Below, in pieces: positions 40,118 through 50,000 of a DNA stretch of 64,000 nt (positions are counted from its first letter, which is position 1; each line of letters begins with the position of its first letter). A program made the translations under genes and the position numbers. The stretch lies in assembly GCF_000420805.1 (NCBI RefSeq), contig NZ_ATVQ01000001.1, positions 682,001-746,000 of the forward strand, written 5' to 3'. Below the pieces are notes generated by a model. The model saw only the letters and a list, made by a program, of their open reading frames with translations, was not told the origin of the DNA and did no database searches. The DNA comes from Yaniella halotolerans DSM 15476 (GTDB lineage: Bacteria > Actinomycetota > Actinomycetes > Actinomycetales > Micrococcaceae).

Positions 40118-40615
40118 ATGACCAACCGTGAAATCTTCTACACCTCCGATATCTACGATGACTTCGAAGACGAGGTGGCCTCCCTGGACCTGCAGCTGCA
40201 AAGTTTAGGGCAGCATCGCCAATTCCACGGCCGCATTCGCACCGTGAAGTGCCTGCACGATAATGGGCTGGTCAAGGCCATCGCCGAGGAGCCGGGCAAC
40301 GGGCAGGTGCTCGTGGTTGACGGCGGCGGTAGCCTGCACACCGCACTGATGGGTGGCAACGTGGCCAAGGCTTTTGCCGAGAACGGTTGGGCCGGGGTCA
40401 TTATCCACGGAGCCGTCCGCGATCGTCATGAGATTGAAGAACTCCCGCTGGGCGTCAAAGCGCTAGGTTCTAATCCGCGTAAATCCGCCAAGCAGAAGAT
40501 TGGGATCCGCGATGTCTCGGTGACCCTGCACAACGTCGAATTTGTGCCCGGAGCCATGGTCTACGCCGATGAAGACGGCGTCATCGTTGACGCACGGGAC
40601 ATTCAAGCCGTCTAA
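40118..40615 (+). CDS. rraA: RraA-family protein (4-hydroxy-4-methyl-2-oxoglutarate aldolase-like)
   Basis: 165 aa from ATG 40118. The RraA/HMG-aldolase core is clear: VVDGGGSLHTALMGGNVAKAFAENGWAGVIIHGAVRD, whose Arg and Asp bind pyruvate and metal, near residues 68-105. E. coli RraA inhibits RNase E, but many homologues are class-II aldolases; sequence alone cannot separate the two. The stop overlaps that of the convergent LysR gene (CTAA). Confidence 0.85.
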   Translation: MTNREIFYTSDIYDDFEDEVASLDLQLQSLGQHRQFHGRIRTVKCLHDNGLVKAIAEEPGNGQVLVVDGGGSLHTALMGGNVAKAFAENGWAGVIIHGAVRDRHEIEELPLGVKALGSNPRKSAKQKIGIRDVSVTLHNVEFVPGAMVYADEDGVIVDARDIQAV

Positions 40616-41526
40616 GTCCCGCTGGCAATACCTTTTCCTGCGGCTGCCGTGCGGACCGCGTCAATCACCAGGTCCAGAGCAGACCGTGGGCCTGCCGCAC
40701 GGCGCCGGGCAATGGAAACGGTGCGCATGACCGGCTGATCCAACGACACAATACTGACGCCTTCGGGAACCGAGTCCAGGGCGAGGTCGGAAACCAGCGA
40801 GACGCCCAGCCCACCGGCGACCATAGCCAACGCCGTCGGCTGTTCTTCAACCGTGTGCATGATCTGCGGATCGAAACCCTGTTCTCGGCAGGCGAGCAAA
40901 ACCGCTTTGCCCAAATGCGAGCGCGAACCCGCCAGAATCCAGGGCTGTTCGCTCAGGTCCAACAACGCCACGGTCGGCCCCGGAATACTGCCCGCAGGCA
41001 CCGCAGCATACAGCCGTTCCACCGCGATCTCCTCGCGGATCAGCGCCGGGTCCCAGGCCAGTGGATAATTCATGTAGTCGATGACGAACGAGAAATCTAA
41101 GGAACCGTCCATCACGGCTTCAGCCGTCGATTCGGGAGCCAACTCTACGGTGCGCACCTGAAGGCCGGGATACTCCTTGGCCAGCGCTCCCAAAGCCGGG
41201 GTGACCAGTCCCGATGCCACGGAAGCCCACACGCCAGCGGTCAGTCGCGCTGACACCCCGTCCTGTGCCTGTTCGAGCGCCATCGAAGCACGATCTACCG
41301 CCGACAGAATGTCCTCCGCGTGTTCTGCAAGGAGTAAGCCCAGCTCAGTCAGCCGGATACGACGTCCGATGCGTTCAACAAGTACCGCGCCGACATCGCG
41401 TTCCAACTGGGCCAACTGTTGAGATATGCCGGAGGGACTATAGTGCAGGGCCGCTGCCACTGCGGTCACAGTACCCCTCCGGTGCAGCTCACGCAGCATC
41501 CGCAAACGACGCAATGACAGGTCCAT
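40612..41526 (-). CDS. LysR-family transcriptional regulator
   Basis: 304 aa. N-terminal helix-turn-helix (LRRLRMLRELHRRGTVTAVAAAL, residues 5-60) and a periplasmic-binding-like effector domain with FVIDYMNYPLAWDP and ILAGSRSHLGK. The divergent gene is a Glu/Leu/Phe/Val-type dehydrogenase 165 bases away, so regulation of that gene and the following amidase by an amino acid is likely. Convergent with rraA. No obvious T-N11-A box was fixed in the gap. Confidence 0.9.
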   Translation of the reverse strand: MDLSLRRLRMLRELHRRGTVTAVAAALHYSPSGISQQLAQLERDVGAVLVERIGRRIRLTELGLLLAEHAEDILSAVDRASMALEQAQDGVSARLTAGVWASVASGLVTPALGALAKEYPGLQVRTVELAPESTAEAVMDGSLDFSFVIDYMNYPLAWDPALIREEIAVERLYAAVPAGSIPGPTVALLDLSEQPWILAGSRSHLGKAVLLACREQGFDPQIMHTVEEQPTALAMVAGGLGVSLVSDLALDSVPEGVSIVSLDQPVMRTVSIARRRAAGPRSALDLVIDAVRTAAAGKGIASGT

Positions 41527-41690
41527 GGCCCCATTCTACTGGGCGTGCATTTCAACCATTCAGAAACCGTGAAAGTCATCGTGCAGAAACTGCAACTAGA
41601 CGCTTGCGCGCACCGTGATTCACACTGGGGCTACAGGCTGCTTGACAGCTCAACAGGCCGGTTATTCGGCCAACGCTGGAGGTGAGAACC

Positions 41691-42938
41691 TTGACAACAA
41701 TTCCACATTCTTCCAGGCAAGACGCATCCCAATTGACGCCTGGAATGCGTCACCCCGATACGCCCGCGATGATCGACGGGCCACCGGTACACGAGCAACC
41801 GTGGGTGGATCCCGTGACGGGCACTCGCGGTTTTCTGGTCATCCACAGTCTGGTCGGCGGACTCGCCACCGGGGGCACGCGCATGCGGCCTGGCTGCACG
41901 CTGGCCGAGGTGACGGATTTGGCTCGTCGTATGACCCTGAAGACTGCAGCCTTTGGCTTACCCGTGGGCGGTGCGAAAGCCGGTCTGGATCTGGATCCGC
42001 ATCACCCCCAGGCCCTTCAGATCTTGCAGCGCTTCTACATAGCCATGCTGCCGTGGCTTGACCAACACTGGGTGACGGCCGAGGATATGGGCATCAGCCA
42101 GAGTGATCTCGACGACGTGCTGCAGCCCCTTGGACTCAGCACGTCCTACCACGCGGCCATTCAACGCTCACCCAATCCCGACCAGACCCTGCAGCGGGTT
42201 CTCGACGGGATGGCAACCCAGGCTCCGGGCGGGCTGCCATTGCGCGATGTGATCGGCGGATACGGCGTCGCCCAAGCGTGCATCGGGACAGCACGGGCGT
42301 TGGACTGGAACCTGTCCGATACCACCGTCGCGATCCAGGGTATTGGCACCATGGGCGGCGGCGCCGGGTGGTTCTTGCACGACGCCGGGGCAGAAGTGGT
42401 TGCCATCGCTGATGCGGCCGGGACGCTGTATGATCCGCACGGGCTCGATGTTCCAGCACTGTTGGCGCTGCGGGACTCCTACGGCGAAATTGACCGTGCA
42501 GGGGTGCCGGACCACGTGCAACGGCTCCCCCGTGAAGCAGTACTGTCGCTGCCGACAGATATTCTCATCCCCGCAGCGCTGTCCTACGCTGTGATGGCTG
42601 ACGCGGTGCCGCAGGTTCAGGCCCGAGCCGTCGTGGAAGCGGCGAATTCTGCCACCACACCCGAAGCCGAAGAGCTACTGGCAGTGCGTGGCGTGCCGGT
42701 GATCCCCGACTTCGTCGCCAATGCCGGAGCGGCCGCCTGGACCTGGTGGCTGTTGCGGGGGCTGGTGGGAACCGATCCGGAGGATTCATTCCAAATGCTC
42801 AGCGACCAAATGCAGGCAAAGGTCGCATTCATGCTCGCTGAGTGGAGCGAATCGGCCGTACTGCCGCGCCGGAGTGCACTGAGCTTTGCCGACACGAACC
42901 ATCGCGCACTGGCCAACACCCACATGCTGGTCCCCTAG
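41691..42938 (+). CDS. Glu/Leu/Phe/Val-family amino-acid dehydrogenase
   Basis: 415 aa from TTG 41691, because GGAGG ends 8 bases upstream; a GTG at 41682 overlaps that ribosome site. The substrate lysine is in PVGGAKAGLDLD near residue 88, the essential Asp in VTAEDMGIS near 125, and the NAD-binding GIGTMGGG near 217. It deaminates an amino acid to a 2-oxoacid (or the reverse). Close in length to glutamate dehydrogenase, but residue variation leaves the substrate open. An amidase gene follows. Confidence 0.85.
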   Translation: MTTIPHSSRQDASQLTPGMRHPDTPAMIDGPPVHEQPWVDPVTGTRGFLVIHSLVGGLATGGTRMRPGCTLAEVTDLARRMTLKTAAFGLPVGGAKAGLDLDPHHPQALQILQRFYIAMLPWLDQHWVTAEDMGISQSDLDDVLQPLGLSTSYHAAIQRSPNPDQTLQRVLDGMATQAPGGLPLRDVIGGYGVAQACIGTARALDWNLSDTTVAIQGIGTMGGGAGWFLHDAGAEVVAIADAAGTLYDPHGLDVPALLALRDSYGEIDRAGVPDHVQRLPREAVLSLPTDILIPAALSYAVMADAVPQVQARAVVEAANSATTPEAEELLAVRGVPVIPDFVANAGAAAWTWWLLRGLVGTDPEDSFQMLSDQMQAKVAFMLAEWSESAVLPRRSALSFADTNHRALANTHMLVP

Positions 42939-42953
42939 TCGACGAAGATGCAT

Positions 42954-42982
42954 TGACATCACCGTGCTTCGATCCTAGGTTG
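42954..42982 (+). promoter_or_regulatory. sigma-70-type promoter for the amidase gene
   Basis: TTGACA (42954-42959), a 17-base spacer and TAGGTT (42977-42982), about 74 bases before the amidase start. The -35 is perfect and the -10 is a fair match. Confidence 0.6.
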
Positions 42983-43055
42983 TCTTCAAGCCCTGTCAGC
43001 CGGATGCTGCTGGGCCACAGGTTGGGCACCTGTACACCACGCCCCGGGAGCCGCT

Positions 43056-44423
43056 ATGAACCCCACTAACATGACCGCCGCACAGTTAGTCGAGGCCTAT
43101 ACCCGCCGAGAGCTGTCGCCCGTCGACGTGACAACAGCGGTACTCGACCGCATCGAAGCGATCGACGAGTCGCTTGGCGCGTACTGCTTCTTGGATCGCG
43201 AGACCTCACTTGAGCAAGCCCGTGCTTCCGAATCCCGGTGGCACACCGGCCAGCCACAGGGACTGCTCGACGGTGTTCCGGTTTCAATCAAAGACATTTT
43301 TCTCACCGACGGATGGCCAACACTGCGTGGTTCACGAGCAGTGGATCCCGACCAGCCCTGGACCGAGGATTCCCCGGTTGCCGCACGGTTGCGCGCCGAC
43401 GGGATGGTCTTTGCCGGCAAAACCACCACCCCAGAATTAGCTTGGAAGGCGGTCACCGATAGCCCGCTGACCGGTGTAACCCGAAACCCCATCGATCCAC
43501 GCCTGACCGCAGGTGGTTCATCCGGCGGTGCGTCGGCAGCTGTAGCGGCCGGGATGGGCCCGTGCGCCGTTGGTACCGACGGTGGTGGGAGCATTCGCAT
43601 TCCGGCCGCGTTCTGCGGCATCGTCGGGTTTAAACCAACCCACGGCCGCGTTCCGATGTTCCCGGCCAGTCCATTTGGACCGTTGGCCCACGCCGGTCCA
43701 ATGACCCGAACGGTTGAAGATGCTGCACTGCTGATGGATATCCTTGGCGTGCCGGACTACCGGGATCCCACATCCCAGGCCCCCGCACGCACCAGCTTCC
43801 GCAGCGCACTGGACCGCGATGTCACTGGTATGCGCCTCGCCTACTCTCGCGATCTCGGCTTCGCGTCCGTGGATCCGGAGATCGCTCAGGTCATTGAAGA
43901 TGCCATCGCACGGATCAGGGACGCCAGGCTCAGCGTCACGGTCGAAGATCCCGGGCTCTGGGATCCACTCGAGGCCTTCGAGATCCTGTGGTCCAGTGGG
44001 GCTGCAACACTCTTGGAGAAAATGCCTGGCGCCCGCGACACCGTTGATCCCGGACTGGCACGGGTATGGGACAAGGGCATGCAGCACACCGCCGTCGAAT
44101 ATCTGCAGGCACGCGATGTTGCAGCCCAGGTTGGGATCACCATGGGCGCCTTCCACGAACGTTACGATCTCCTGCTGACACCCGCCGTGGGTATTGCTGC
44201 CTTTGAAGCCGGCCATGATGTGCCACCCGGAAGTGATCTGGAGCGCTGGCCGCAATGGTCGACATTCAGCTATCCCTTCAACCTCAGCCAACAGCCTGCC
44301 ATCAGCATCCCAGTCGGGACAACGACCGAGGGGTTACCGGTCGGATTGCAGATTATAGGACCGCGTCACGCCGACGATCGTGTACTAGCGGCTGCCCATT
44401 TCGTGGAGCGTTTGCTGGATTAG
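43056..44423 (+). CDS. amidase signature family enzyme
   Basis: 455 aa. The Ser-cisSer-Lys triad: Lys in VSIKDIF near residue 78, Ser in GGSSGGASAAVAAGMGP near 152-155, and GTDGGGSIRIPAAFCG. It hydrolyses an amide, possibly releasing an amino acid or acid for the dehydrogenase encoded just upstream; it is not part of a gatCAB operon, so the GatA role is unlikely. ATG 43056 has GGGAG near it. A small coiled-coil paralogue gene follows 34 bases after the stop. Confidence 0.9.
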   Translation: MNPTNMTAAQLVEAYTRRELSPVDVTTAVLDRIEAIDESLGAYCFLDRETSLEQARASESRWHTGQPQGLLDGVPVSIKDIFLTDGWPTLRGSRAVDPDQPWTEDSPVAARLRADGMVFAGKTTTPELAWKAVTDSPLTGVTRNPIDPRLTAGGSSGGASAAVAAGMGPCAVGTDGGGSIRIPAAFCGIVGFKPTHGRVPMFPASPFGPLAHAGPMTRTVEDAALLMDILGVPDYRDPTSQAPARTSFRSALDRDVTGMRLAYSRDLGFASVDPEIAQVIEDAIARIRDARLSVTVEDPGLWDPLEAFEILWSSGAATLLEKMPGARDTVDPGLARVWDKGMQHTAVEYLQARDVAAQVGITMGAFHERYDLLLTPAVGIAAFEAGHDVPPGSDLERWPQWSTFSYPFNLSQQPAISIPVGTTTEGLPVGLQIIGPRHADDRVLAAAHFVERLLD

Positions 44424-44457
44424 ACGGTGACCGATGGGGCAGAATGGAGCTATGTAT

Positions 44458-44652
44458 ATGTCGGCAGAGCTGCTTGCGATTATCTTTTCCGCCGCCGGTT
44501 TGCTGGTCACGCTCGGCGGTGGGCTTTTTGCTGGTTTCGCATGGATGATACGACGCACAGACGCTCAATTGACTGAGGTCAAGATATCACTCGCACGCCT
44601 GGAAGGTCCGCGTGAGTTGCTCATCCTGCCCCGTGGATCAGTCAACCATTAG
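44458..44652 (+). CDS. small membrane protein, rod-less paralogue of the 959-1450 gene
   Basis: 64 aa from ATG 44458 (GGAG 8 bases upstream; the ATG at 44452 is too close). One membrane helix (MSAELLAIIFSAAGLLVTLGG) and a conserved tail EVKISLARLEGPRELLILP. The 959-1450 protein has the same two ends with a long repeat rod between them. The ribosome-site region is also conserved (ATGGAG..ATGTA.ATGTCGGCAGA). Function unknown. Its last 11 bases overlap the convergent reductase gene. Confidence 0.72.
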   Translation: MSAELLAIIFSAAGLLVTLGGGLFAGFAWMIRRTDAQLTEVKISLARLEGPRELLILPRGSVNH

Positions 44653-45211
44653 TTTGGGGAGGTTGTACTGCGTATCGCATCAGTACACCGCCGGTGTCGG
44701 TCGGTCGTGTTTCGAGCAACGTCAACGGCCGCGGCACTGGGGCAGGTTTGAACAAGGGCTCTCCTTCTCCCAGCAGCACCGGTGCAACGCCGATGAGGAG
44801 CTCATCCACGAGATCTGCTTGCAGCAACGTATCCGCCAGTCGTGCACTACCAAACACATAGATCGGGCGGTCGTCGGCTGCCTTACGACGTGTCAGCTCG
44901 CCCACAATATCGTCTGTGACTTGGGTATTGTTCCAGTGAGCCGTCGTGAGCGTTTCGGAAGCCACCAACTTGGGTGCGGCATTCATATACTCGGCGATCT
45001 CGCCCTCGTCCGTGGTAGTTGTCCAGTGTTCCGCCATGCCTTCGTAGGTGACTCGACCGAACACGAGTAATCCGAGTTCACGGCCGAATTGCATGCTGAG
45101 ATCCTGCAGGTCTTGACCCCAGATGTATTCATGGAGCCGCAGGTCCCACGGTTCTACACCCTGAAAGTAGCCATCAACAGAGACAATGTTCCAGACAATT
45201 AACTTCGCCAT
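44642..45211 (-). CDS. dihydrofolate-reductase-fold protein (RibD C-terminal type)
   Basis: 189 aa. The fold of the RibD C-terminal/DHFR superfamily is suggested by the N-terminal strand VWNIVSVDGYFQG, the GRVTYEGMAEHW segment near residue 52, and YVFGSARLADTLLQADLVDEL near 120. Stand-alone members reduce small molecules with NADPH, but the substrate is unknown. A GAGGAG ribosome site precedes ATG 45211. It is convergent with the small membrane protein gene. Confidence 0.85.
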   Translation of the reverse strand: MAKLIVWNIVSVDGYFQGVEPWDLRLHEYIWGQDLQDLSMQFGRELGLLVFGRVTYEGMAEHWTTTTDEGEIAEYMNAAPKLVASETLTTAHWNNTQVTDDIVGELTRRKAADDRPIYVFGSARLADTLLQADLVDELLIGVAPVLLGEGEPLFKPAPVPRPLTLLETRPTDTGGVLMRYAVQPPQTNG

Positions 45212-45461
45212 GCTCGCACTCCTCTAAGGTTCAGCACTGCGTGAGCCGAATTTTAGTGCACCCCGTCACTGTGCACCACCCATTGCACGAATTCCAGTCT
45301 CCGTCAAGGCCGAGAAGTGCCATTTTCCAGAAGATTCTCACGTCTTCATAAGTCCGTAGCCGTCACAAAGTCGCAGTACTTCACATTTGAAGCAATAGTG
45401 GATATAGCTTGTTACAAGATCAGCGTTCCTGGCCCTGATTCACACCGAGAATAGATTGAAG

Positions 45462-47036
45462 ATGCAAACACCACAGCAGCCGCATAAACAACCAGCCTCC
45501 ATTAGCACAACCATGTTCATCGTTACTCTCATTGCCTTGGCCGCGATGAGTATTGCGATAGTAACCCTCCCGTTAACGATTCCCGGTTTCATATATGTAG
45601 TAAACCTACGTAAGCACCATGCAGCGGACCGTGAGCGTCTTCAAGCAGTCACGTGGCAATATCACCAGGCCAACAACCGTATTGGGCAACTACAAGCGGA
45701 CCTTCATGAGTCGAAAATCAATTTCGATCACGTGGCGAAAGAACATGACGATCTGCGCAATAGATTCATACAAATCGACGACATGAACCTATTACAACGT
45801 CACGAAGAAGCCCAACGACTCGATGGCGAAATTGCAGAACGAGAGACAGCAATCAATGAGCTATCAGAGCAGAAAGAAGCCGATTTAGCTGCTTTTGAGG
45901 CTCGCAAACAGGCTGTTGTCGACGACATCGCGTCGGAGCGCCAGAAACGTGATGAACTCAAGGAAAACGTCGTGGATCTTGAAGAAATGGTAAATCTCAA
46001 TGATTACGGGCTTTACAATTTCGAGAACCCCGCAGCTGATTCCGTCCACTATGGCGACGAACTGAAACGGGTAAAAACAAGAATCAAAGGGATGGTCAAG
46101 GACAAGACTGCGACGAGCGCATCTACCACTTGGACTGTTGACAACTCAGTGGCGAAAGGACGAAAAATGGTGAACGATATGAGCAGACTCCTCCTTCGCG
46201 CCTTCAACGCTGAAGCAGAAAACTCAGTTAAGACCGTTCGCGCAGGTCATTTATCGACAGCGATTAAACGTCTACATAAATCCTCTGAAGCTGTCGCCCG
46301 CATGGGCAAAATGATGGATCTGAGAATCCATCCAAACTACGTCTGGCTACGCGAAGAAGAGCTTCGCATTACCCACGCACATCTCGAAGCCAAAAGGGCC
46401 GCAAAGGAATTGGAACGGGAAGAAAGAGCACGAGAGCGAGAGGAACGTCGAGCCCAGAAAGAACTAGCCGCGGCAAAGGCCAAACAAGTCAAAGAAGTCG
46501 AACACTATCGAACTCTGCTGAAAACTCTCCAAGATTCAGACGATGCACAAGCCATCGCCAATGCCTCAGCAGACCTTGAGGCAGCTGAAGATAAGTTGTC
46601 AGATGTTGAATCAACGATGGCGAATACACGGGCGGGCTATGTCTATGTGATTTCTAACCGGGGTGCCTTTGGCCCAGATATTATCAAGATCGGTATGACA
46701 CGAAGGCTCAACCCAGCCGAACGTGTTCGCGAACTCGGTGACGCGTCGGTGCCCTTTTACTTTGACAGTCACACTACAATCTTCGCAAAAGATGCGGTCG
46801 GTCTTGAACGCGCTTTACACCGCCATTTCGCTTCGGCTCGCGTGAATCTCATCAATCTCCGACGAGAATATTTCTACGCCACACCGTCAGAGGTTAAAGA
46901 CGCATTAGTCCAACTCCACGGGGACTATGACGCACAGCTTCTCGAATTTCACGAACCCGCCGATGCCCCAGAATATGTGGCATCAGAAGATCTTCGGAGC
47001 AAAGGGACGATCCCCCAGCCTGCGAACCTAACCTAG
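45462..47036 (+). CDS. membrane-anchored DUF4041/GIY-YIG nuclease, SNIPE-like phage defence candidate
   Basis: 524 aa from ATG 45462 (a TTG two codons earlier is possible). One N-terminal membrane segment (residues 15-48) is followed by a coiled coil (about 60-175), a DUF4041-like domain (about 180-325, with YGLYNFENPAADS), a very charged Glu/Arg/Lys coiled coil (325-400) and a C-terminal GIY-YIG domain (about 408-500: GYVYVISN, IIKIGMTRR, RVRELGD, LERALHRHF, RREYF). This order matches SNIPE, an E. coli membrane nuclease that cuts phage DNA during entry. Base composition is slightly lower in G+C than nearby genes. No partner gene is adjacent. Confidence 0.8.
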   Translation: MQTPQQPHKQPASISTTMFIVTLIALAAMSIAIVTLPLTIPGFIYVVNLRKHHAADRERLQAVTWQYHQANNRIGQLQADLHESKINFDHVAKEHDDLRNRFIQIDDMNLLQRHEEAQRLDGEIAERETAINELSEQKEADLAAFEARKQAVVDDIASERQKRDELKENVVDLEEMVNLNDYGLYNFENPAADSVHYGDELKRVKTRIKGMVKDKTATSASTTWTVDNSVAKGRKMVNDMSRLLLRAFNAEAENSVKTVRAGHLSTAIKRLHKSSEAVARMGKMMDLRIHPNYVWLREEELRITHAHLEAKRAAKELEREERAREREERRAQKELAAAKAKQVKEVEHYRTLLKTLQDSDDAQAIANASADLEAAEDKLSDVESTMANTRAGYVYVISNRGAFGPDIIKIGMTRRLNPAERVRELGDASVPFYFDSHTTIFAKDAVGLERALHRHFASARVNLINLRREYFYATPSEVKDALVQLHGDYDAQLLEFHEPADAPEYVASEDLRSKGTIPQPANLT

Positions 47037-47141
47037 TTATCCTCGTTCCGGTCCTAGCAACTCCCCTACGAAGCCAACTAGCCTAGAGGCACTAGGTCTG
47101 AACCCGCAGCCGCGGAAGTACGATAAGGAGTGAGACTTATC

Positions 47142-49136
47142 ATGGCACAAAACGTTGCACAAAAACTCATAAACTCCCATTTGGTGAGCGGGACCGCTGA
47201 ACCAGGCCACGAGATCGGCCTGTCGATCGACCAGACACTCACCCAGGATGCCACCGGCACCATGGTGATGCTGGAATTGGAAGCGCTTGGTTTAGATCGG
47301 GTCAAGACTGACCTCTCGGTCCAATACGTTGACCACAACCTCCTGCAAACCGACGAGAAGAACCCCGAAGACCACCACTTTCTCCAATCTGCTGCCCAAC
47401 GCTACGGGCTCTGGTTTTCCAAACCGGGGAACGGTGTATCGCACCCGGTACACCAGGCTCGCTTCGGGCGACCCGGAACCACGATGATCGGCTCGGACTC
47501 GCACACGTGTGCTGCCGGTGCGATCGGCATGTTGGCGATCGGAGTCGGGGGCCTGGAAATCGCGATGGCTATGGCCGGTGATCCGCTGTACGTGCAGATG
47601 CCCGAAATTTGGGGCGTGGAACTAACCGGCGAACTGCCCGATTGGGTTTCGGCCAAAGATGTCATTCTGGAGATGCTGCGCCGTCACGGAGTCAAAGGCG
47701 GCGCCGGACGCATCATTGAATACCACGGTGAAGGTCTTAAACACCTGACGGCGATGGATCGACACGTGATCGCCAATATGGGCGCCGAACTCGGTGCGAC
47801 CACCAGTGTGTTCCCGGCCGATGATGCGGTACAAGCGTTCTTCACCGCGGTTGGTCGCCCAGATGATTTCACGGAACTGTTGGCAGATGAGGGCGCAACC
47901 TATGACGTGGAAGAACACATCGACCTCTCCACACTTGAACCATTGATCGCCATGCCGTCGTCACCAGGAAATGTTGTTCCAGTGCGCGAAGCAGCCGGCG
48001 AAGAAGTCTTCCAGGTGGTCGTCGGATCTTCGGCAAACCCTGGACTACGCGATTTCGCCGTCGTCGCAGAGATCCTCAAAGGTCAGCAGTCACACGAGCA
48101 AGTATCGCTGGATATCAACCCGTCGTCGCGTGAGATTCTGATGGATCTGACCAAAGGCGGGTGGACATTCGAGCTGATCGGTTCCGGCGCACGCATTCAC
48201 CAATCCGGTTGCATGGGTTGTATCGGTATGGGCCAGGCACCAGCGGTAGGGCGTAATAGTTTGCGCACCATGCCGCGCAACTTCCCGGGCCGCTCAGGTA
48301 CCGACGAAGATGCGGTGTGGTTGTGCTCACCCGAAACTGCAGCGGCCGCCGCACTCACCGGCAAGATCACTGATCCTCGAGATCTGGAGATGGACTATCC
48401 GAAGGTTCAACTACCAGAAACGTATACCGTGAACACGGATATGTTGCTACCGCCACTGCCGAAAGACGAAGCCCAAGAAGTGGAACTCGTCAAGGGGACG
48501 AACATCAAATCGCTACCCGAATTCGACAGTCTCCCCGATGACATCGATCTGCCCGTGCTATTACGAGTCGGCGATGATATTTCGACCGACGAGATTATGC
48601 CGGCCGGTTCTCGTGTGCTGCCGTATCGCAGTAATATCCCCAAGATCGCCGAGTTCACCTACATCCAAGTCGATGACACCTATGCGACCCGAGCCGGAGA
48701 CTTCCCGGGCGGGCATGCGATCGTCGGCGGCGAGAACTACGGTCAGGGCTCATCGCGCGAACACGCGGTCATTGCCCCGCGGCACCTGGGCTTGCGCATC
48801 GTGATTGCCAAATCCTTTGCCCGAATTCACTGGCAGAACCTCGCGAACTTCGGCGTGCTTCCATTGGAATTCACGAACCCCGAAGACTACGGCCGCATCG
48901 GACGCGATGATGTGCTGGAGTTTTCCGGACTGTGGGAGGCGCTCGAGCAAGGCAATACCGTCACCGCGCAGCTGGATAACGAGCCATTGGAACTGCGTCA
49001 CCGGCTATCTGACCGTCAGGTTGAAATGGTCTTGGCCGGCGGGCGCATTCCACAGCGCGCCGCGCAGGGCACCGGTTCCTCGAAAGACACCCCGGAACCC
49101 CGCGAAGAAATGAAACCCACTCAACCAGAAGGTTAA
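47142..49136 (+). CDS. aconitate hydratase (short form)
   Basis: 664 aa from ATG 47142, with AAGGAG upstream. The iron-sulfur cysteines are in SHTCAAGAIG (near residue 125) and SGCMGCIGMG (near 355), and the swivel domain starts near 480 with GDDISTDEIMPAGSRVLP and has GGENYGQGSSREHA. Isomerises citrate and isocitrate (TCA cycle). The length is below the roughly 890 of AcnA, matching the shorter aconitase/homoaconitase-like class; homoaconitase is unlikely in this group but not excluded. The GIY-YIG gene lies upstream in the same direction, 105 bases away. Confidence 0.9.
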   Translation: MAQNVAQKLINSHLVSGTAEPGHEIGLSIDQTLTQDATGTMVMLELEALGLDRVKTDLSVQYVDHNLLQTDEKNPEDHHFLQSAAQRYGLWFSKPGNGVSHPVHQARFGRPGTTMIGSDSHTCAAGAIGMLAIGVGGLEIAMAMAGDPLYVQMPEIWGVELTGELPDWVSAKDVILEMLRRHGVKGGAGRIIEYHGEGLKHLTAMDRHVIANMGAELGATTSVFPADDAVQAFFTAVGRPDDFTELLADEGATYDVEEHIDLSTLEPLIAMPSSPGNVVPVREAAGEEVFQVVVGSSANPGLRDFAVVAEILKGQQSHEQVSLDINPSSREILMDLTKGGWTFELIGSGARIHQSGCMGCIGMGQAPAVGRNSLRTMPRNFPGRSGTDEDAVWLCSPETAAAAALTGKITDPRDLEMDYPKVQLPETYTVNTDMLLPPLPKDEAQEVELVKGTNIKSLPEFDSLPDDIDLPVLLRVGDDISTDEIMPAGSRVLPYRSNIPKIAEFTYIQVDDTYATRAGDFPGGHAIVGGENYGQGSSREHAVIAPRHLGLRIVIAKSFARIHWQNLANFGVLPLEFTNPEDYGRIGRDDVLEFSGLWEALEQGNTVTAQLDNEPLELRHRLSDRQVEMVLAGGRIPQRAAQGTGSSKDTPEPREEMKPTQPEG

Positions 49137-49182
49137 TTACCGTGGGCTTTTCGACGCAGCGCTTCGGCGAGAGGGATGATTG

Positions 49183-49869
49183 GTGACGAAAAATCAGCAG
49201 CAAGTCATCGCTGCCGAATCCGTCGCGCAACGCCTCGATCGCCCGATGGGTGTTCTGGGCATCATATTCCTGCTGGTCGTCCTTGCACAGCTCCTTGTCA
49301 CAGACCCGACCGGCCAAGCTGTTCTCGCAGTCGTCGGTTGGGTCTTCTGGGGCATCTTCGTCGCAGAATTCCTGTTGCGCGCCTATATTGCACGTTTCCA
49401 GGCCCACTTTTGGCGCAAAAACTGGTGGCAAGTGATTTTCCTGCTGGTACCGTTTTTGCGATTCTTCCGCGCCCTCCAGGCCCTGCGAGTGTGGCGCGTC
49501 GCCCGATTTGGGACCGTACTCTCAGCGGGAGTGCGCGGCTCACGGTCCGCCGGGAAATTACTCTCGAGCCGGATCGCTTGGCTGTTGGCTGTGACCGCGA
49601 TTGTCATTCTGGCCGCGAGTCAACTGCTATATCTCTTCGCAGAGTACCCCAGCTATTTTGATGCCCTCTACGAGGCGGCCTTGGCAACCATCACCGGGGC
49701 CGGATTCAGCGCAGACACGGTCTTCGCGCGCAGTCTGCATGTCGTCCTCGCGGTTTTCTCGGTGGTGGTTTTCGCTACCCTCGCCGGCTCAATCGGTGCT
49801 TTCTTCCTGCGTCGTGACCCGGTCGAAGACGGAACATCCCCAGACGACCACACCGCGCCCCTCCCCTAG
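49183..49869 (+). CDS. ion-channel-like membrane protein with altered selectivity filter
   Basis: 228 aa from GTG 49183 (TTG 49180 is possible). Voltage-gated-cation-channel layout: helices at about residues 22-42, 45-68 and 80-90, an S4-like segment with repeated arginines (FLRFFRALQALRVWRVARFG), then two helices around a pore loop. The place where K+ channels carry TVGYGD reads TITGAGFS, so potassium selectivity is doubtful. The C-terminus is acidic and short. The gene lies 46 bases after aconitase in the same direction; function is unknown. Confidence 0.75.
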   Translation: MTKNQQQVIAAESVAQRLDRPMGVLGIIFLLVVLAQLLVTDPTGQAVLAVVGWVFWGIFVAEFLLRAYIARFQAHFWRKNWWQVIFLLVPFLRFFRALQALRVWRVARFGTVLSAGVRGSRSAGKLLSSRIAWLLAVTAIVILAASQLLYLFAEYPSYFDALYEAALATITGAGFSADTVFARSLHVVLAVFSVVVFATLAGSIGAFFLRRDPVEDGTSPDDHTAPLP

Positions 49870-49895
49870 CTCACTGATACACGACCAGAAAACAC

Positions 49896-49912
49896 ATACC
49901 CCTGGCGGGTAT
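49896..49912. promoter_or_regulatory. upstream CsoR operator
   Basis: ATACCCctggcGGGTAT-type dyad; a copper-responsive CsoR site is expected to have this GTA-rich inverted repeat (TACCCC...GGGGTA). It is about 90 bases before the csoR start. Confidence 0.7.
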
Positions 49913-49934
49913 ATTCGTTGAGGGCAATTCTTGT

Positions 49935-49961
49935 TTGACAGATACCCCCTAGGGGTATAAA
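49935..49961 (+). promoter_or_regulatory. csoR promoter with operator between -35 and -10
   Basis: TTGACA (49935-49940) and TATAAA (49956-49961) with a 15-base spacer. The second CsoR dyad ATACCCCCTAGGGGTAT (49942-49958) fills the spacer, so bound repressor would block RNA polymerase directly. Confidence 0.78.
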
Positions 49962-50000
49962 ACTGGGAGTAGTCGAACCCATGAGAACTAGGTGGCAACT

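Follow-up and report, generated by a model that had tools for sequence, protein, structure and literature searches.

A SNIPE/PD-Lambda-1 homologue with a predicted membrane anchor in the actinobacterium Yaniella halotolerans

The gene and its product

We analysed a stretch of 64,000 nucleotides from the genome of Yaniella halotolerans DSM 15476 (contig NZ_ATVQ01000001.1, positions 682,001 to 746,000; hereafter the window), which carries at 45462..47036 of its forward strand a gene for a homologue of SNIPE, also known as PD-Lambda-1. PD-Lambda-1 was discovered in an Escherichia coli screen (PMC9519451) and was given the name SNIPE in a study describing it as a membrane protein that cuts phage DNA on entry (PMC13190303). 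The open reading frame (ORF) encodes 524 amino acids followed by a stop codon and starts with ATG, with an alternative TTG start two codons upstream.

The original prediction for this DNA, made from the sequence alone, had described a SNIPE-like protein with the order transmembrane helix, coiled coil, DUF4041-like domain, charged coiled coil and GIY-YIG nuclease, and this order was right according to hydropathy, domain matches and a model. A single hydrophobic segment forms a predicted transmembrane helix at residues 18-36 (45513..45569, forward strand, as for all parts of the protein; Kyte-Doolittle mean of 2.6 over 19 residues), which become residues 20-38 when counted from the TTG start. 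Residues 1-17 contain one Lys or Arg and basic residues follow from residue 50 onward, a charge pattern that suggests an N-out/C-in topology of the predicted helix. The model places long helices or a coiled coil at residues 49-181 (45606..46004) and charged helices at residues 291-387 (46332..46622). The profile search that had been proposed as a check returned 55.5 bits (cut-off 27) for DUF4041 (PF13250) at residues 242-297 (46185..46352), and 58.9 bits for MUG113 and 52.9 bits for T5orf172 in the GIY-YIG nuclease domain at residues about 392-482 (46635..46907); these domain matches are far beyond chance. In SNIPE, DUF4041 has a positively charged face that binds DNA; in the window protein the corresponding region (residues 195-300) holds, by a count on the sequence alone, 21 Lys/Arg vs 12 Asp/Glu.

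The codon at 46806..46808 specifies Glu449, the counterpart in the alignment of the catalytic Glu414 of SNIPE, and this residue is invariant in the 9 rows of alignment A1, the 32 rows of A2 and the 48 rows of A3. The fold of the GIY-YIG domain resembles those of Slx1 and HIGLE, while a search of solved structures by sequence yielded no convincing relative (best E 0.24).

Comparison with known SNIPE proteins

The PADLOC model for PD-Lambda-1 (SNIPE), PDLC03976, matches residues 60-514 of the window protein over profile positions 34-475 of 491 (1.8e-107). Together with DUF4041, the GIY-YIG domain with its catalytic Glu and the predicted N-terminal helix, this match bears out the proposed kinship with SNIPE; a missing DUF4041 or a lost catalytic residue had been named as evidence against it, and both are present. 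On the features that a sequence can reveal, the assignment of the window protein to SNIPE/PD-Lambda-1 thus holds.

Our reference was the PD-lambda-1 protein annotated in phage PhiR26_1 (XSB42081.1), with which nine of nine tested residue numbers from PMC13190303 agree. Both proteins are encoded by a single gene and have the same order of membrane helix, coiled coil, DUF4041, helix and GIY-YIG, and the catalytic Glu is conserved (E414 aligned with E449), whereas overall identity is 30%. Three positions implicated in tape-measure binding by E. coli SNIPE (PMC13190303) also differ, i.e., E223, W257 and the crosslinked N250 correspond to I268, R302 and W295 in the window protein. Such contact positions vary across the family in our alignment, and the change W257R is described as frequent among SNIPE homologues (PMC13190303); these differences come from the alignment and would name no phage targets. 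Among the published homologues, 59% plus 7% are predicted to have an N-terminal transmembrane helix, the form with one predicted helix being the commonest at 59% (PMC13190303).

SNIPE homologues have been reported from 33% of well-sequenced clades in many phyla (PMC13190303), and PD-Lambda-1 has been predicted in 95 of 114 genomes of the actinobacterium Clavibacter (PMC11856565) and is also recorded for the Bacillus cereus group. In Streptococcus thermophilus, protection by one PD-Lambda-1 exceeded 3 logs for some phages, but a homologue 98.5% identical to it conferred none (PMC12322248). This system resembles that of the window in its Gram-positive host, its native locus between two genes and its accessory occurrence among strains, but it differs in that protection was shown by experiment, and the likeness is drawn from its published description. 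Considering that homologues are already known in many phyla, including those of S. thermophilus and the predicted ones of Clavibacter, a Gram-positive SNIPE is not new, and the Yaniella protein is an ordinary further member that adds one species to the family.

Setting of the gene

The gene stands alone, as the original prediction had stated, between a RibD_C gene (44642-45211, reverse strand) and an aconitase-family gene (47130-49136, forward strand), and a PADLOC search of 10 flanking ORFs (E up to 0.001) gave no matches. Neither an integrase gene nor another defence gene was observed next to it in the window, and a setting in a defence island or prophage, considered as a candidate, is unsupported given the empty PADLOC search. 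Across the whole genome there was no match to PhageMin_Tail (PF10145), a tape-measure family. This result counts only against prophages whose tail proteins include a member of this family, and the search was loose, as its control matched 7 of 14 genomes, including two from archaea.

By homology, a single-gene cassette can be delimited at 45382..47095 (forward strand), where the approximate left edge is the start of homology to a second Yaniella genome (G002) and the right edge the start of sequence common to the empty site of a third (G008). The region 45200-47250 contains no sigma-70 consensus promoter (mean of 1.9 in shuffled sequences), and upstream bases common to the window and G002 may mark a promoter of a different kind.

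The G+C content of the gene is 49.7% vs 58.0% for the window, and its G+C at third codon positions (GC3) of 0.486 is below that of every other ORF among the 33 larger ones chosen (0.537 to 0.743). The G+C content had been called slightly lower; it is lower, but the drop is larger than that wording implies. GC3 is low in the other two SNIPE copies of the genus as well (0.517 in G002 and 0.481 in G006).

Distribution and history in the genus Yaniella

DUF4041 was found in three of nine Yaniella genomes, our own included, and, when only the five with a completeness of at least 90% and a contamination of at most 5% are counted, in one. The SNIPE gene is therefore accessory in the genus, and its presence in every member, which had been put forward as evidence against acquired defence DNA, is not what we observe. 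The comparison of relatives at the same site, likewise proposed, gave one genome with the gene and one without. In G002, the gene occupies the corresponding site immediately 5' of the aconitase gene, with a class-III aminotransferase gene as left neighbour instead of the RibD_C gene of the window. G008 possesses the aconitase and aminotransferase genes, but the 1,839 bases that separate the aligned blocks in G002 are matched there by 84 bases. Three further genomes (G003, G004 and G005) have the aconitase gene and no DUF4041; G001 lacks a close match to aconitase, and the completeness of G007 is 71%. G006 carries the SNIPE gene about 10 kb away from aconitase, and a single GNAT gene separates SNIPE from genes for a CsoR-like regulator and a P-type ATPase.

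Gene content between the LysR and amidase genes on one side and the CsoR-like gene on the other (window 40600-50000; compared in L025-L032) varies within the genus, with aminotransferase, RibD_C and SNIPE genes gained or missing and the neighbours of aconitase changing. The aminotransferase gene beside SNIPE in G002 (L032:10899-12124) is split over two frames, and the G008 copy is one ORF.

A recent acquisition was considered and rejected: the composition looks foreign, but the number of synonymous substitutions per site (dS) between the window and G002 is 1.15 for SNIPE and 1.13 for aconitase, pointing to a long-resident gene, with the caveat that dS values above 1 are near saturation and make any reading of age an indication only. 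Against G006, most dS values were saturated and had no computable value. The earlier reading of the gene as acquired defence DNA thus stands as far as composition is concerned, but not for a recent arrival. We prefer, as an indication only, the view that SNIPE would be an accessory gene of long standing that these species inherited and that some, e.g., G008, have lost.

The ratio of nonsynonymous to synonymous substitution rates (dN/dS) of SNIPE against G002 is 0.074 overall, and by region it is highest in the first coiled coil (residues 56-180, 0.197) and low in the DUF4041 region (0.042) and the nuclease (0.029), which we read as a constrained core of DUF4041 and nuclease with a fast-changing coiled coil. 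Such purifying selection and the Slx1-like fold could also fit a nuclease of DNA repair or recombination, a role that has been proposed for the T5orf172 family (PMC7824862), but the confinement of DUF4041 to a third of the genus, the membrane helix and the long match to a defence model argue against that role, and among the alternatives weighed here we give it the least credence.

Relatives outside the genus

Of 295 Micrococcaceae genomes, 39, representing 16 of 32 genera, contain DUF4041. An even sample of 396 genomes from the phylum yielded 14 with DUF4041, 11 of these above the curated cut-off. In addition, tblastn matched 34 phage and 185 plasmid records, some only to the nuclease part. 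Actinophages Poushou and Mask carry the homologue near integrase and regulator genes, and their proteins (gp33 and gp44, respectively) share the DUF4041-GIY-YIG core with plasmid proteins of Kocuria, Rhodococcus and Curtobacterium (the set H2, H6, H36, H37 and H35), at 42-47% identity over 71-82% of the query (tblastn). Three of these proteins differ from the window protein towards the N-terminus: the Poushou protein as annotated has no membrane helix, and DUF2510 stands instead in the proteins of Mask (residues 101-129) and of the Rhodococcus plasmid (residues 5-35). A scan of viral sequences with the single window protein found no relative, while the same scan with alignment A1 found at least 386 among 600 stretches; the best 80 of these were used, and filters for motif, length and near-copies left 59 ORFs, of which 45 entered the structure alignment and 12 the trees. 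Salmonella phage ES18 encodes a SNIPE homologue, gp19 (L021:2944-4473), annotated as a possible moron and located one gene from the tape measure gene of ES18.

The combination of a membrane anchor with a nuclease, and the many matches in plasmid records with possible action against rivals, would also suit a membrane nuclease that limits any foreign DNA, such as plasmids or transforming DNA, rather than one specific to phage injection. On the other hand, E. coli SNIPE leaves plasmid transformation efficiency unchanged (p = 0.58, not significant; PMC13190303) and homologues reside in phages too, and we consider so general a function very unlikely.

N-terminal modules

For 28 of the 36 matches of the family search outside Yaniella, DNA was obtained. 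Among their N-termini, a Trp/Pro-rich stretch is the commonest module (10), followed by TerD (8), membrane helices (7) and DUF2510 (2), and one protein has none of them. Pfam confirmed TerD in 8 of 8 (L047, L048, L053-L056, L058 and L060, all from Micrococcaceae genomes; ORFs L053 and L056 extend upstream of the likely start) and DUF2510 in 7 of 7 over all sources (L068, L069, L071, L076, L090, Mask and the Rhodococcus plasmid). The fusions of DUF2510 with DUF4041 and GIY-YIG occur in actinobacterial genomes, a viral contig, a mycobacteriophage (Mask, L020:4551-6227) and a plasmid (Rhodococcus, L024:3836-5230). The Trp/Pro-rich stretch, of the kind FNPPPGWPxPPxGWxPPxxWxPDPxWPxPPxGWQLW, is found in L042-L046, L050-L052, L057 and L063, and also in L073; it had no Pfam match in the five tested (L042, L043, L044, L051 and L073) and is possibly an unnamed module. 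For the Curtobacterium plasmid protein the label "none" given on the tree is unsure, its annotated start being late and the tblastn match entering an upstream DUF2510 gene.

The tree of the core included 57 of 58 rows, Mic_L059 being dropped as its motif reads VASN; an earlier tree had lost 7 of 58 rows to the motif filter. The near-copies L046 and L069 were left out, and the Idiomarina fragment and Mic_L062 were flagged as long branches. The TerD proteins, which have the same core as the window protein and carry TerD in place of the membrane helix, form one clade of eight rows, and the three Yaniella proteins group with Mic_L049 with 100/100 support. The 17 membrane-anchored proteins, by contrast, do not form one clade, and a tree joining them was rejected at p-AU 0.004 (approximately unbiased test), a value that is not clean as the group was tested after the earlier tree had been inspected. 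This arrangement suggests that the window protein and E. coli SNIPE probably have helices of separate origin, or else that anchors were lost repeatedly; counts of modules cannot tell gain from loss. The tree rows were labelled by motifs and a hydropathy threshold; Act_L073 is labelled as having no module and yet has a Trp/Pro-rich N-terminus, which puts this module in at least two places of the tree, where the table gives one.

Neither TerD nor DUF2510 was found by a word search of the main text of the SNIPE paper (PMC13190303), whose supplementary N-terminal lists may name them. A search of the available literature found no paper on TerD together with DUF4041 and one jumbo-phage paper on TerD with T5orf172, the passages of which do not contain the TerD-DUF4041-GIY-YIG fusion.

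Proposed mode of action

By analogy with E. coli SNIPE, the single N-terminal helix would hold the nuclease at the inner face of the membrane, and the long coiled coil would extend it into the cell. When a siphovirus injects its genome, DUF4041 would contact both its tape measure protein and its DNA, and this contact may bring the GIY-YIG domain into position for cutting the entering phage DNA, with the membrane anchor keeping the nuclease off the chromosome. We regard it as highly probable that the window protein is an actinobacterial SNIPE of this type, i.e., a membrane-anchored defence nuclease that would recognise the tape measure and cut entering phage DNA.

E. coli SNIPE uses the mannose permease ManYZ against phage lambda, and other siphoviruses are blocked without ManYZ (PMC13190303). 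Unlike E. coli, the host of the window protein has no match to the ManY and ManZ families (PF03609 and PF03613) in its genome, listed as 100% complete in 6 contigs, although E. coli, Bacillus subtilis and Lactococcus lactis all matched as controls. Since protection without ManYZ has been described, this absence has no bearing on SNIPE membership, but the ManYZ route seems closed for the window protein. Direct contact with the tape measure, or another membrane partner, would thus most likely serve if the protein is active.

The absence of the E. coli partner families also raises the alternative that the homologue is inert in Yaniella, for want of a partner or a matching phage, and is kept by chance, and the S. 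thermophilus pair illustrates that near-identical proteins can be inactive. The open frame and the low dN/dS, above all in the nuclease, suggest instead that the gene has been kept working, and inertness is in our view highly improbable.

Conclusions

Considering these results, a wider proposal can be made tentatively, as a possibility that we do not favour over its contrary: the actinobacterial core of DUF4041, helix and GIY-YIG may be an aimable effector whose aiming part has repeatedly been replaced (by membrane helices of separate origin, TerD, DUF2510 or the Trp/Pro-rich stretch), and the Yaniella form may be a ManYZ-free SNIPE that recognises the tape measure directly or via an actinobacterial membrane partner. 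Overall, the family suggests exchangeable parts, where nuclease and DUF4041 stay and the N-terminal module changes by clade, and an intact SNIPE in a Gram-positive actinobacterium with no detected ManYZ-type permease offers a natural test of action through the tape measure only.
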